Source of the DNA: Acholeplasmataceae bacterium
GTDB lineage: Bacteria > Bacillota_I > Bacilli_A > Acholeplasmatales > Acholeplasmataceae
Reading direction: 5' to 3'
Assembly: GCA_018400755.1 (NCBI GenBank)
Contig: JAGYLU010000018.1
Coordinates: forward strand, 1-35,183
DNA length: 35,183 bases
Part shown: positions 2,120 through 21,705 of the stretch, in pieces
How positions within the stretch are numbered: the stretch's first letter is position 1
How the letters are laid out: the number at the start of each line of letters is the position of its first letter
Made by a program: the position numbers and the translations under genes
Notes under the pieces: generated by a model
The model's input: only the letters and a program-made list of their open reading frames with translations
What the model was told of the DNA's origin: nothing
The model's database searches: none

Positions 2120-2912
2120 TCACACCAACCTCCTTCTGAGTGCCGAAGAAACAAGGTCAATGATCAGGACGGCTCCAAAGGAAATGATGACAATCATCCC
2201 AACGCGGTCGAATCGTCGCCAAGACAGTGCGACTTCATAAATCTGACCGACACCACCGGCACCGACATAGCCAAGGACGGCGGCAGCACGGACATTGACC
2301 TCAAACGCATAAAGCGCATATGACATGAACTGCGGCATGATTTGGGGAATAATGGCGTATCTGAGTATTTCCATACGGTTCGCACCCAAAGACATCATCG
2401 CCTCAATGGGTCCATCGTCGATCGTCTCAACGGTTTCATAGGTCAACTTGGAGATTGAATAAAAATAAAGTGCGGACACCCCCCCCGGCAAACGCTCCGG
2501 AACTGAAGACAGCGACAAAAAGCGAGGCGAGTACCAAGGCGGGAATCGTTCTGAAGACATTCAAAATCACTCTGACCGGGGTGTTGACCCATTTGGTCCG
2601 AATGAAGTTCGATGAGGCCATCAAGGCCACTGGAAAGGCGACAATCGCACCTAAGAACGAGCCGACGATTGCCATTTGGATGGTCTCAAGCAAAGGCCCA
2701 ATGATGTTTGGTGTGTAGTCCCAAGCTGGTGGCAAAAACATGCGATCCAAGAGGCGCGAGCCCTTATAGAAATTGATCAGGACCTCAATCACTGAAAACT
2801 CAGCAAAAACAGCACTCCCAACGATCAGAAATGCGACAATGAATGACGTCAACCAAAACTTCAGACGAGGAGGCCTTTTGACCTCAATCGGCTCACTAGA
2901 TGACAAAAACAT
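2120..2912 (-). pseudogene. phnE: PhnE-type permease (first copy), frameshifted
   Basis: Two overlapping frames together make one PhnE-like permease. The first begins at the ATG at 2912, overlapping the phnC stop (TGATG), and carries the N-terminal membrane segments up to GAFAGG. It then ends about 14 residues later. The second frame resumes with ISKLTYETVE and carries the coupling motif (EAMMSLGANR) and the C-terminus. The switch lies at or just after a run of eight G on the coding strand (2479-2486); seven G would restore one frame. Even with that repair the junction is two to three residues shorter than the sibling PhnE, so a small deletion is also possible. It could be a real pseudogene, a slippage-controlled gene or a sequencing error. 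The two halves show no other decay, which favours a recent event or an error. Confidence 0.85.
2479..2486. repeat. Homopolymer C8 (G8 on the coding strand) at the phnE frameshift
   Basis: Eight consecutive C on the plus strand, inside the first phnE at the exact point where the reading frame breaks. Runs of this length are prone to polymerase slippage and to sequencing errors. Confidence 0.95.
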
Positions 2913-3799
2913 CACTCGTCACCCACGAAGTCCTGATTGCTGATGGGACGGCCATAGACTTTCTCAAGGTCATCGATGATCTTGGCATGCTGTTTCTGGA
3001 CGACCGGAACATCATAGACAATCTCGCCATCCCTGACACCGACAATCCTGGTGGCGTAGCGAAGGGCAAGATCGACGTGATGCAGGTTCGCGATGGTGGT
3101 GATCCCGTCCTCGACGTTGATTTTCTTGATGTATTCCATCACTTCGAAGGTGGTGATCGGATCAAGGCTCGCCACCGGCTCATCGGCCAGAAGGATCTTG
3201 GCTTGCTGGGCAAGACTTCTGGCAATCGCGACGCGTTGCATCTGACCTCCGGACAGCTGGCTGGCCCGGCTATAGGTTTTTTCTAGGATATCGACTTTCT
3301 CCAAAGCACGGAAAGCGATTTGGCGATCATGCTCCGGAAATAGCCCGATCAAGGTTCGCCATGTCGGATTATACGCAACCCGTCCGGAAAGGACATTTTG
3401 GAGGACTGACATCCGCTTGATGATATTGAAACTTTGAAAAATCATCCCGACTTGGCTGCGCATCATCCTGAGCTTTTTGCCTTTCAAGGTCGTGATGTCG
3501 ACATCGGCAAGATCCAGGTCCGCTTCATTGATTTCCCGACCTGCCGCTTTCATCGCTTCGATTGTTTTATCCGGATGATCCCCATAGAGTTCATGGGTGT
3601 TCAAATCAACGTTCTCGAAGATGATGTGGCCTTCGGTGACCGGTATGATTTGGTTGATCGTTCTCAAAAGCGTTGACTTCCCGGCACCTGACAAACCCAG
3701 GATGGCGACAAACTCGCCTTCCTTGATCTCGAGACTGACGTTTTTCAGTGCTTTGGTACCATTGTCATACGTCTTGGACACATTGATGATTTTGATCAT
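2912..3799 (-). CDS. phnC: Phosphonate/phosphite-type ABC transporter ATP-binding protein PhnC
   Basis: A 295-residue ABC ATPase with Walker A GLSGAGKST at 35-43, Q-loop FQSF at 121-124, signature LSGGQMQR at 182-189, Walker B ILLADE at 202-207 and an H-loop in NLHHVD. The PhnC-specific ILLADEPVASLDP context and the C-terminal part fit the family closely. It is longer than the usual 250-262 residues because about 30 extra, acidic residues (roughly 66-105, rich in Asp, Glu and Lys) sit between Walker A and the Q-loop. The ATG at 3799 has AAAGGAGCG about nine bases upstream. It follows phnD and overlaps the first phnE. It powers uptake of a phosphonate, phosphite or related oxyanion; which one cannot be told from sequence. 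Confidence 0.94.
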   Translation of the reverse strand: MIKIINVSKTYDNGTKALKNVSLEIKEGEFVAILGLSGAGKSTLLRTINQIIPVTEGHIIFENVDLNTHELYGDHPDKTIEAMKAAGREINEADLDLADVDITTLKGKKLRMMRSQVGMIFQSFNIIKRMSVLQNVLSGRVAYNPTWRTLIGLFPEHDRQIAFRALEKVDILEKTYSRASQLSGGQMQRVAIARSLAQQAKILLADEPVASLDPITTFEVMEYIKKINVEDGITTIANLHHVDLALRYATRIVGVRDGEIVYDVPVVQKQHAKIIDDLEKVYGRPISNQDFVGDE

Positions 3800-3873: not shown

Positions 3874-4806
3874 TTATGAACCGAAGTCCCAGTCTTCTTG
3901 TCTCTGCAAATAAGTTCTCACGATATCATATTCCTCATCGGTTGCGGCCGCATATCCCTTATGGGAATAGATCGCATCGACGATGGCGATATGGTCAGGA
4001 TTCAAAGAGAAATCCAAGAATGCCTGGGTGATGCGTCCAACAAGGTATCTGTCTAGTCTTGGAATGACAGAAATGGTGTCATTCGGGATGATTGTGGTAT
4101 CGGTGATGAAAACGACATCATCATTGATGTTCGGGTATTCATCACGTAACAAGTTTCTCGCATCCTTGAATGTGAAAGCAGCGTCTGCTGTGCCGTTCAT
4201 GATGGCCAAAATAGCATTGTCATGACCACCCGCGTTATGCCATGTGACGTCTGTTTCAGGGTCAAGGCCGTTATCGGCCAAGAGGTTGGCTGGCCATACA
4301 AAGCCAGAGGTGGAGGTAAATGAGGAAATTGCGATGGTCTTACCGGCCAGGTCGGCAATCGTTTCAATTCCAGAATCAGCGCCGACAACGAGTTGTGATT
4401 TATAACCATCAACAAGCGGTTGGTCTCTCAGTTCGGTTCCGGCATCATCAACATCATATCTGAGTGATTTCAAGATGACGTTTGCAGCACCTTCATCATG
4501 GGCAAGGACATAGGCTGTCGTGGCAAGAAGGCCAACATGGATCTGTTCGGATGCCATACCTTCAATCAGGGCGTTGTAATCGGTCGCGATGGTGACATTC
4601 ACTTCCATGCCCAAGTATTGCTCAAGCAGTTCTTCAAATGGGGCTCTTTGTGCATTCAGGACAGTCGCGTCCCGAGAAGGAATCAACTGAACTTCAAGAA
4701 CATCGGGGAACAGATACTGCGTTGTGTCGCATTCTGATTCCTCACACGCGGTAATCCCAAAAAACAGTGCGAAAACAATCAATGCCAAAAACAGTTTTTT
4801 CATCAT
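3874..4806 (-). CDS. phnD: Phosphonate/phosphite-type ABC transporter substrate-binding lipoprotein PhnD
   Basis: This 310-residue protein begins with a lipoprotein signal: a Lys pair, a hydrophobic stretch and the lipobox ITAC, with the lipidated Cys at about residue 21. The mature part matches the PhnD/PtxB periplasmic-binding-protein family: a SRDATV-type first strand, ISSFTSTSGFVWP near the middle (the conserved phosphonate-binding STSG region), and NGTADAAFTFKDA. It is the first gene of the phn operon and would capture the substrate outside the membrane for the PhnC/PhnE transporter. GGGAG precedes the tandem ATG codons at 4806 and 4803. Its upstream region holds inverted repeats that overlap the likely promoter. 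Substrate specificity (phosphonate, phosphite, methylphosphonate or other) is not readable here. Confidence 0.93.
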   Translation of the reverse strand: MMKKLFLALIVFALFFGITACEESECDTTQYLFPDVLEVQLIPSRDATVLNAQRAPFEELLEQYLGMEVNVTIATDYNALIEGMASEQIHVGLLATTAYVLAHDEGAANVILKSLRYDVDDAGTELRDQPLVDGYKSQLVVGADSGIETIADLAGKTIAISSFTSTSGFVWPANLLADNGLDPETDVTWHNAGGHDNAILAIMNGTADAAFTFKDARNLLRDEYPNINDDVVFITDTTIIPNDTISVIPRLDRYLVGRITQAFLDFSLNPDHIAIVDAIYSHKGYAAATDEEYDIVRTYLQRQEDWDFGS

Positions 4807-4838
4807 TTCTCTCCCTTTTTTGGTTTTCTTACGTGTCC

Positions 4839-4867
4839 ATTTTACATGAACTGCGATTGAAAAGAAA
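4839..4867 (-). promoter_or_regulatory. Likely phnD promoter
   Basis: On the minus strand TAAAAT (4844-4839) is preceded, 17 bases upstream, by a weak -35 TTTCTT (4867-4862). The -35 overlaps the inverted repeat at 4865-4884. Confidence 0.5.
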
Positions 4868-4928
4868 GTCTATCATGTGACTTTTTTGAAAATAATTCAT
4901 GACGATACAAAGTCCTATCGTGACTTTG
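4865..4928. promoter_or_regulatory. Tandem inverted repeats AAAGTC-N7/8-GACTTT, candidate operators
   Basis: Two near-identical dyads lie between divergent phnD and the gene at 4994. The first, 4865-4884, is AAAGTC, eight bases, GACTTT. The second, 4908-4928, is CAAAGTC, seven bases, GACTTTG. Their spacers are also alike (TATCATGT and CTATCGT). A further half-site, GACTTTG, is at 4959-4965. The dyad centres are about 43-44 bases apart, near four helical turns. The first overlaps the phnD -35 and the second abuts the -35 of the plus-strand gene. Confidence 0.7.
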
Positions 4929-4929
4929 C

Positions 4930-4958
4930 TTGCAACATCAAAGAAATCATAGTAAAAT
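4930..4958 (+). promoter_or_regulatory. Promoter of the His-rich small protein gene
   Basis: TTGCAA (4930-4935), a 17-base spacer and TAAAAT (4953-4958). It is bracketed by the second inverted repeat upstream and a GACTTTG half-site immediately downstream. Confidence 0.6.
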
Positions 4959-4993
4959 GACTTTGTGGGCACGCGAGAGAGAGAGTGAGACAT

Positions 4994-5287
4994 ATGGATA
5001 AACAACGTCGAATTGAAAAATTCATCAAGAATGAGGAACCATCGGATCAAAGACATCATGGTCGTCATGATCACCGCCCCGGAGGCCCCAGGGAATTCAA
5101 GAGATTTCGCCATGACCGGGAAAACACGGTTCGTTTGTTTACTGACAAAGAAGCCATGGTGCTCTATGTCAACACCCTTGAAAATATCGAAAATGTCGAT
5201 GTTTACAAGATCGAAGATCATCTCTACAAGGTTCTTGTTACCCGTTTGAAACCACACGTGACAACAAAAGATCCCAATCAAGAATAG
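4994..5287 (+). CDS. Small His-rich protein of unknown function
   Basis: I do not recognise this 97-residue protein. The N-terminal half is very basic and polar with a His/Arg-rich stretch (HHGRHDHRPGG, about residues 21-31), which could bind metal or nucleic acid. The C-terminal half (about 46-90) looks like a compact alpha/beta domain with a TVRLFTDKEAMVLYVN segment. There is no signal peptide or membrane segment. I chose the ATG at 4994; an in-frame GTG at 4985 lies inside the purine-rich stretch that must serve as the ribosome site. It is a single-gene unit with its own promoter and terminator, divergent from phnD and sharing its repeat-rich control region. A link to the transporter or to metal handling is only a guess. 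Confidence 0.75.
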   Translation: MDKQRRIEKFIKNEEPSDQRHHGRHDHRPGGPREFKRFRHDRENTVRLFTDKEAMVLYVNTLENIENVDVYKIEDHLYKVLVTRLKPHVTTKDPNQE

Positions 5288-5321
5288 TCACCTATCCACA
5301 TAAACCATTCGCACCCACAGG

Positions 5322-5348
5322 CATGGAAGGATCTTCCTTCCATGTTTT
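5322..5348 (+). terminator. Intrinsic terminator after the His-rich gene
   Basis: A ten-base-pair stem (CATGGAAGGA with TCCTTCCATG) with a three-base loop, followed by TTTT. Confidence 0.7.
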
Positions 5349-5368
5349 CATAAACCAAAGGAGAACAT

Positions 5369-6004
5369 ATGAAAAAATTAGTCATCATCGACTTCGATGG
5401 GACCATCGCTGACTCATCATCTTATGCTTATGACATCTATGTTGACCTGATGACACACATGTCACGTCCGGCCCTTGACCAAGATCAATTTGAACTCATG
5501 AGAAAAAAGCCACTCAAAGAGCGGATCAGACAAGCAGGGATTCCCTTATATAAGATTGGCCGCTTGGTGCGACTGACAAAAGAACTTCAAAAAAAGCATG
5601 TGCTAAAAACAACCTTGTACCCTGGAATCAAGGATCTGTTGATGATGCTCAAGGATGATTATGCACTCGCTATCGTGTCTTCGAACACTGTGGCCAACAT
5701 CAAGACGTTTCTTCTGACCCATGAGATGGATCTGTTTGACTCAGTCATCGGAAATCAAGGCATTCACGGAAAAGCCAAAGCACTTAAGAAGACCCTCAGA
5801 GTCCTCGATGTGACCAAAGAAAACGCACTTTACGTCGGAGACGAGACCAGGGATATTCACGCCGCCAGAAAAGCCCATGTCCCAATTGTCTCGGTTGCTT
5901 GGGGTTTTGACCATCATGATCTTCTTGAGGCACACAATCCTGGGTTGGTCGCAACCTCCAACCAGGACCTCAAACAGATGATTGACCGATTGCTAAAAGC
6001 ATAG
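5369..6004 (+). CDS. HAD-superfamily hydrolase, phosphoglycolate phosphatase-like
   Basis: This 211-residue protein shows the four HAD motifs. Motif I is DFDGT at residues 8-12 with the nucleophile Asp8 and acid/base Asp10. Motif II is SSNT (about 104-107), the conserved Lys is in KAKALK, and motif IV is GDETRD (about 156-161). The helical cap between motifs I and II places it in subfamily IA with phosphoglycolate phosphatase and PpaX-like enzymes. AAAGGAG lies at good spacing before the ATG. It is cytoplasmic and stands alone: a terminator precedes it and a hairpin shared with the convergent GGDEF gene follows. The substrate, some small phosphate ester, is unknown. Confidence 0.88.
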   Translation: MKKLVIIDFDGTIADSSSYAYDIYVDLMTHMSRPALDQDQFELMRKKPLKERIRQAGIPLYKIGRLVRLTKELQKKHVLKTTLYPGIKDLLMMLKDDYALAIVSSNTVANIKTFLLTHEMDLFDSVIGNQGIHGKAKALKKTLRVLDVTKENALYVGDETRDIHAARKAHVPIVSVAWGFDHHDLLEAHNPGLVATSNQDLKQMIDRLLKA

Positions 6005-9850: not shown

Positions 9851-10279
9851 TCAAGTATCGTCTCTAGGTCTCAGTTTTACAAGGATCGACCTGAGAGACT
9901 TGATTTCATGTTCCGTGATTTTTAGTTCATCACTGATGTCTGAAGGCACATGAAGTGCAACTTTAGCCATCTCCATACCTGCCAGAGTCAAACTGACAAT
10001 GACTTTGCGCTCATCGGTCGGATTTCTACGTCTTTCAACCAACCCTTCCTTCTCAAGTTTCTTCAACAAGGGTGTCAACGTTCCGGAATCAAGGTCCAAC
10101 CGCCGTCCGAGATCTGTCACCGTTTGATTGTCATTCTCCCATAGGGCGATCATCGTGACGTATTGCGTATACGTCAAATGGAGCGGATCAAGAAGTGGTT
10201 TATATGCCCTGGCAATCAATCTGGATGCCTTATATAACATAAAGCAAATCTGATCATCTAAGCGCCATTGGTCCTTCAT
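9851..10279 (-). CDS. ohrR: MarR-family organic-peroxide sensor, OhrR-like
   Basis: A 142-residue winged-helix repressor. The N-terminal segment LDDQICFMLY, with Cys12, and the following YKPLLDPLHLTYTQY correspond closely to Bacillus OhrR, where the equivalent Cys is oxidised by organic hydroperoxides and releases DNA. The recognition region LDLDSGTLTPLLKKLE and the wing RNPTDERKV also match. Its ATG overlaps the gpx stop by four bases (ATGA), so the two genes are co-translated and it probably represses its own operon. It lacks a second resolving Cys near the C-terminus, so it is the one-cysteine type that relies on a cellular thiol. The OhrR assignment is strong; direct control of gpx is inference. 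Confidence 0.9.
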   Translation of the reverse strand: MKDQWRLDDQICFMLYKASRLIARAYKPLLDPLHLTYTQYVTMIALWENDNQTVTDLGRRLDLDSGTLTPLLKKLEKEGLVERRRNPTDERKVIVSLTLAGMEMAKVALHVPSDISDELKITEHEIKSLRSILVKLRPRDDT

Positions 10280-21021: not shown

Positions 21022-21705
21022 ATGATGACCCTCACATTGTTTGCTGAATCTTTCGACCATTTGGATACTTTTGTCCATGAACTTGAAGCCGGCGGTTTCA
21101 CAGTTAACAAGCAGTCGTCAGAGCATTTGCTTGAAACTAACGACATCTCAGAATCGAATTTTGTTCTTCTCTACCTTGATGGAAGTGACAGCATCAACAA
21201 GGAACGAGTTGCCCAGATCAAGCGTTTGACACCTGCACCCATGTTCGTGATCACATCAGACACATCCGAAATCGTCAGATCCTATTATCTCAATATCGGT
21301 GCTGATGGTGTCATCACCGAACCCATTCCACACATCGAGACGATTTCAAGAATCAACGCCCTGATGAGACGCTTCAGCGACTACCAAAGCCGCACGAACA
21401 ACAAGATTTTCAAGTTGGGACCCCTTGTTGTTTATCTTGATGACTACCGGGTGACCAAAGCCGGCCGTGACGTGAAGCTGACGGCGCGTGAATTCGCCAT
21501 TTTAAAACTGCTTGTGCAACACCCAAACACCATGGTGTCTCGCAAGAAAATCATCGACATGATCTACAAGCTTGATGACTCAACCACCGACAACGCGATC
21601 AATATCCACATCAATCGCCTAAGAAAAAAGCTCTCATTTGATGAGAGCGAGAACTTGATCGAAACCGTTTGGGGCCTTGGCTACAGACTCAAGAACAATC
21701 ATTGA
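21022..21705 (+). CDS. Atypical OmpR-family response regulator (degenerate receiver)
   Basis: A 227-residue protein with an N-terminal receiver-like domain (1-115) and a C-terminal winged helix (about 128-225; motifs LTAREFAILKLL, VSRKKIIDMIY, INIHINRLRKKL, WGLGYRLK). The winged helix is fully canonical. The receiver is not: the acidic pocket (normally Asp-Asp) reads FAE at 7-9, the phospho-acceptor position aligns with Tyr51 (the nearest Asp is 53), and the conserved Lys is Glu100 (VITEPI). It is thus unlikely to be phosphorylated normally. No kinase is adjacent. AAGGAAG precedes the ATG at 21022. It is monocistronic, with repeats in its promoter and a UUCG-capped terminator, which suggests an autoregulated global regulator acting without phosphorylation. 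Confidence 0.88.
   Translation: MMTLTLFAESFDHLDTFVHELEAGGFTVNKQSSEHLLETNDISESNFVLLYLDGSDSINKERVAQIKRLTPAPMFVITSDTSEIVRSYYLNIGADGVITEPIPHIETISRINALMRRFSDYQSRTNNKIFKLGPLVVYLDDYRVTKAGRDVKLTAREFAILKLLVQHPNTMVSRKKIIDMIYKLDDSTTDNAINIHINRLRKKLSFDESENLIETVWGLGYRLKNNH

Follow-up and report, generated by a model that had tools for sequence, protein, structure and literature searches.

PhnF, a UTRA-domain regulator of the GntR/HutC family, controls phosphonate-importer (phn) genes. Tandem palindromic operators, in which like dyads lie in phase beside -35 regions, are a generic bacterial arrangement between divergent promoters. Locus-limited regulons are common in acholeplasmas, and the regulons of 21 A. 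laidlawii transcription factors are confined to their own operons (PMC5138195). Inverted repeats with AGTC/GACT cores are also known in Mollicutes, as HsdC sites (PMC5282649). At the level of the message, pairing between the 5'-UTR and the 3'-UTR of one mRNA has been described for B. subtilis hbs, which it protects from RNase Y, and for S. aureus icaR, whose ribosome site it blocks (PMC7821165; PMC3868564).

The locus analysed here lies in a stretch of 35,183 nucleotides from an Acholeplasmataceae bacterium, referred to as the window. It contains a phnD-like gene and a divergent small gene encoding a His-rich protein, with two dyads, D1 and D2, between them. Our computational analysis indicates that pairing of the two ends of the small gene's mRNA is better conserved than the dyad pair. 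The features of the locus are as follows.

3874 to 4806, minus strand: gene for a phnD-like substrate-binding lipoprotein (TIGR01098 above cut-off, PhnD equivalog TIGR03431 below cut-off)
4839 to 4844, minus strand: predicted phnD -10 box TAAAAT, from promoter reading
4865 to 4884, no strand assigned: dyad D1, AAAGTC-N8-GACTTT, proposed operator (pattern search and chance test)
4909 to 4927, no strand assigned: dyad D2, AAAGTC-N7-GACTTT, proposed second operator (pattern search and chance test)
4930 to 4935, plus strand: -35 box TTGCAA of the small His-rich gene
4953 to 4958, plus strand: -10 box TAAAAT of the small His-rich gene
4959 to 4965, plus strand: GACTTTG, earlier called a third half-site, read here as spacer and RNA start (same layout in 14/14 sequences)
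4964 to 4973, plus strand: RNA 5'-end element TGTGGGCACG (TGTAGGTGWG in relatives), the first 6 nt of which pair with 5314-5319
4994 to 5287, plus strand: small His-rich protein gene, 97 aa from ATG, without Pfam or NCBIfam match
5310 to 5319, plus strand: 3'-UTR element CGCACCCACA, predicted partner of the 5'-end element
5322 to 5348, plus strand: intrinsic terminator CATGGAAGGA-TCT-TCCTTCCATG followed by TTTT (inverted-repeat search)

Elsewhere in the window, the first phnE permease gene (2120-2915, minus strand) is divided between two frames (ORFs 2436-2915 and 2120-2560), suggesting either a frameshift or an error in the assembly.

Pairing of the two ends of the small gene's mRNA

Fourteen credible relatives of the small gene were found, all in one other genus, and 13 of them have the promoter on the contig. 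These 13 and the window share one layout (14/14 sequences), consisting of a -35 box, 17 bp, a -10 box, exactly 5 nt and then a conserved element. In the 13 relatives the predicted RNA 5' end TGTAGGTG begins exactly 5 nt 3' of the -10 box, and in the window, where the promoter is TTGCAA-17-TAAAAT, TGTGGG begins 5 nt after that box. The element reads TGTAGGTGWG in the relatives, with CGTAGGTGTG in L049, and TGTGGGCACG in the window.

This layout bears on the GACTTTG copy at 4959-4965, which the original prediction had described as a third half-site following the small gene's -10 box. The copy is present and directly adjoins TAAAAT. Its letters are the 5-nt spacer GACTT and the first two bases of the element, TG, which account for it, so that it need not be an operator half-site and appears better explained as the -10/start spacer plus the conserved mRNA 5' end. 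The larger value of the analysis lies in this correction, which assigns the supposed half-site to a conserved element for mRNA end pairing; the operator pair considered below is a modest, single-genome prediction.

The 5' end in the relatives pairs with CACCYACA just upstream of the terminator and shows compensatory changes. Both ends could be compared in 12 relatives, each of which has a complement of the 5' element, CACCTACA or CACACCTGCA, immediately upstream of its terminator hairpin; the window has CGCACCCACA (5310-5319) ahead of its terminator (5322-5344). When ten pairs were scored in 13 sequences, with the pairing register chosen by eye, 94.6% of the cells were paired, compared with at most 58% when the partner was slid; two of the ten positions are mismatched in the window pair. 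Both sides had changed in five cells, and neither this number nor the covariation score was reached in any of 500 shuffles.

The window 5' end and its own 3' element gave -15.6 kcal/mol, compared with -8.0 kcal/mol for the best element from a foreign genome, and the helix 4964-4969/5314-5319 was part of the predicted whole-message fold, with a probability near 1 for five of its six pairs. As a control, a shuffled 3' stretch paired as well by energy alone in 33 of 5000 cases, and because this result is less striking, the case for pairing rests on the alignment.

Complementary UTR segments under selection to pair, which define the hbs and icaR kind of system, appear to be present here, and the aligned sequences argue that the 5'/3'-UTR pairing of the small gene's mRNA is conserved and selected for. 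As in hbs and icaR, the segments belong to the 5' UTR and 3' UTR of one small gene. In contrast to those systems, the 5' element coincides with the predicted start to within about a base and its partner immediately precedes the terminator, 13 genomes preserve the pairing and show compensatory changes, and the pairing element of the window is unlike a ribosome-binding site in appearance. An Rfam search of 4700-5500 returned one sub-threshold match. If the pairing works, it would extend the short list of bacterial 5'/3'-UTR pairings by a case with covariation support, from a lineage whose transcriptional control is very reduced.

Sequence, rarity and conservation of the dyads

D1 is AAAGTC-TATCATGT-GACTTT (20 bp, spacer 8) and D2 is AAAGTC-CTATCGT-GACTTT (19 bp, spacer 7), or 21 bp if the 7-bp arms CAAAGTC/GACTTTG are counted. 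The two exact dyads with matching arms that had been reported are thus present at 4865-4884 and 4909-4927, and the reported separation of 43-44 bp agrees with their starts, 44 bp apart, and their centres, 43.5 bp apart (about four helical turns); the 20 and 21 bp given as spacers are total lengths. D1 and D2 also have inner letters in common beyond the exact arms, the minus-strand letters being AAAGTCAC-(AT)-GATA-GACTTT and AAAGTCAC-GATA-G-GACTTT, and a search for inverted and direct repeats identified GTGACTTT as a direct repeat with copies 43 bp apart.

The centre of D1 lies at about -42 relative to the phnD start, start sites being predictions from -10 boxes. D1 had been described as overlapping the phnD -35 box; it does overlap the place expected for that box (4861-4868), but every hexamer at 15-19 bp spacing matched TTGACA in at most two of six positions. 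D2 was correctly described as abutting the divergent -35 box, its end being 2 bp upstream of TTGCAA (4930-4935), a weaker box than the TTGACA found in 10 of the 13 small-gene relatives. In support of the predicted phnD -10 box, TGTAAAAT is also found upstream of some phnD orthologues.

Among the 179 exact 6-bp dyads in the window, D1 and D2 were the only same-arm pair within 80 bp. In a shuffle test devised after the pattern had been seen, such a pair turned up in 3 of 300 whole-window dinucleotide shuffles and, for the intergenic stretch, in 1 of 20,000, figures that are optimistic because of this post hoc choice and, somewhat, because the real window is richer in dyads than the shuffles (179 vs 105). 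Chance alone is not a comfortable explanation for the pair.

Conservation was examined in the 300 bp upstream of nine distinct phnD orthologues (L008, L009, L035, L036=L085, L037=L087, L038=L084, L086, L088 and L089; 66-77% identical). None of the nine carried AAAGTC or GACTTT in this region, even as a single half-site, and the dyads were conserved at none of the 13 small-gene promoters. In the assembly of this genome (2.23 Mb, 239 contigs), degenerate dyads with two mismatches numbered 149 and 98, compared with 152 and 135 in reversed-pattern controls. Exact dyads with spacers 7-8 occurred three times (D1, D2 and one inside a YchF-like gene), and the reversed pattern not at all; with spacers 5-12 there were six, and the four besides D1 and D2 lay inside the YchF-like gene, inside a GltD-like gene, over the end of an atpB-like gene and in a terminator hairpin (gene names are readings of translations). 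The original prediction had looked to conservation upstream of phnD orthologues for support, which the nine orthologues do not give. A multi-target regulon motif was rejected, further promoter copies not exceeding chance in a scan allowing 0-2 mismatches.

The dyad was present in 34 of 88 family genomes, as single matches, with no closely spaced dyads outside the D1/D2 locus among the matches listed; DNA similar to 4840-4993 was limited to the self-match across the 88 genomes. The family genomes span about 0.3-2.3 Mb, and the named phnD relatives are labelled Tenericutes, Bacillales and Izimaplasma. Since the dyad pair was found in one genome only, a phylogenetic footprint is absent.

Candidate regulators and readings of the dyad pair

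No regulator gene is adjacent to D1 and D2. The nearest in the window encode a MarR protein (9851-10279, beside a glutathione-peroxidase-like gene) and an OmpR-type protein (21022-21705), and the proposal of a dedicated importer regulator, linked to phnD, was supported neither by this gene order nor by the nine orthologues. PhnF-type control, which resembles the present case in having phosphonate-importer genes as target, was rejected because no UTRA-domain protein was found in this genome, in an assembly about 95% complete and with a search that was positive in 8 of 14 known genomes. The view that the site is not a PhoP/PhoB box was upheld, as direct TTAACA-like repeats are missing and neither TTAACA nor TGTTAA occurs in 4807-4993. 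GACTTT is absent from the text of the Mollicutes promoter and regulator paper PMC5138195. The TetR protein linked to the small gene in relatives was rejected as a binder of D1 and D2, its own operator TGTGACAAGGTTGTCACA being unlike the dyads.

That D1 and D2 are a tandem operator pair for one dimeric regulator, specific to this locus and lineage, is a reading to which we give about an even chance. One helix-turn-helix dimer would contact each dyad through the AAAGTC/GACTTT arms, and two dimers about four helical turns apart would occupy the same face of the DNA. On the phnD side, the regulator may activate from about -42 or block polymerase, because D1 covers the missing -35; on the other side D2 would act beside the weak -35 of the small gene. 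Protein binding, the sign of control and the response of both genes are the inferred parts of this scheme. The geometry is compatible with one dimeric regulator at two sites, without distinguishing activation from repression, and a single regulator reaching both promoters is plausible. The control of both directions that had been proposed thus agrees with the geometry but not with the nine orthologues, the control frequency of degenerate dyads or the lack of a linked regulator.

The operator reading is favoured by the exact paired arms, the shared inner letters, the rarity of such pairs in shuffles and the positions of the dyads, D1 over a phnD -35 of at most two of six matches and D2 2 bp from the other -35. 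The place of D1 and D2 among only three exact dyads with spacers 7-8 in the genome and the frequency of locus-limited regulons in acholeplasmas also speak for it. Against it are the spacers of 8 and 7, unusual for a rigid dimer, and the missing adjacent regulator gene, because a regulator acting on its own operon alone should be encoded alongside. The lack of conservation at nine phnD orthologues and 13 small-gene promoters, the restriction to one genome and the post hoc statistics also count against it. Compared with generic tandem operators, the likeness is that of like dyads in phase beside -35 regions between divergent promoters; the differences are the 1-bp change in spacer, the occurrence in one genome only and the lack of an identified regulator gene.

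A possible explanation, somewhat short of an even chance, is that the dyads arose by coincidence, or were left over from the rearrangement that brought the small gene beside phnD, such as a partial local duplication of a segment bearing GTGACTTT. The direct repeat of GTGACTTT, 43 bp apart, is in keeping with such an event, the small gene is gone from its place between a membrane protein gene and a TetR gene in a cluster otherwise intact on contig C113, and the dyads are conserved nowhere and have degenerate copies at control frequency. A duplication should, however, bring flanking similarity, and the match is confined to the dyad letters; same-arm pairs were also rare in shuffles.

Within the operator reading, it is rather unlikely that the sites, near -42 and -86, serve phnD alone, with the small gene using its own promoter and being controlled post-transcriptionally by the UTR pairing. 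Such a division would suit a phnD gene without a -35 and a small gene that retains both boxes, and the relatives' small gene lacks the dyad yet retains the RNA pairing, but D2 abuts the small gene's -35, which is weaker than that of most relatives. It is highly improbable that the dyads are the C-box of a restriction-modification controller protein, since, although C.Csp231I-type operators with wide spacing (PMC3115060) and the HsdC sites of Mollicutes (PMC5282649) likewise have two palindromes side by side with AGTC/GACT-like cores in inverted order, the usual GACT-N3-AGTC is replaced here by AGTC-N8-GACT and AGTC-N7-GACT (a reversed AhdI-type site being AGTCC-N2-GGACT), the dyads lack the central GT arrangement, and the window ORFs that were read included no recognisable restriction-modification gene.

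The small gene family and its position

Three relatives were read out in full, and in these the small gene is flanked by genes for a membrane protein and a TetR protein, the latter followed by an ABC transporter. The same cluster is intact in this genome on contig C113 without the small gene, so its place beside phnD is lineage-specific, and any control common to the two genes is therefore probably recent. We propose, tentatively and as a somewhat unlikely whole, that this is a family of small His/Cys-rich genes in Acholeplasmataceae whose mRNA closes on itself, to guard against 5'-end RNases or to gate translation, and that here the gene moved beside phnD, where it and the importer came to share a new operator pair specific to this lineage.

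The TetR gene on contig C113 (L090) has the perfect palindrome TGTGACAAGGTTGTCACA before its start, with close variants in the relatives L039-L052, and this palindrome resembles an operator for autoregulation.

Pfam and PDB searches with the small-protein family returned weak, inconsistent matches only, and the single-sequence structure prediction was unusable (mean pLDDT 52). The small protein of the window is His-rich in its N-terminal half, and the relatives L039, L040, L047, L049 and L052 have acidic tails with Cys-Cys pairs, repeated in some. The Cys-Cys tails and the His-rich N-terminal half suggest metal binding.
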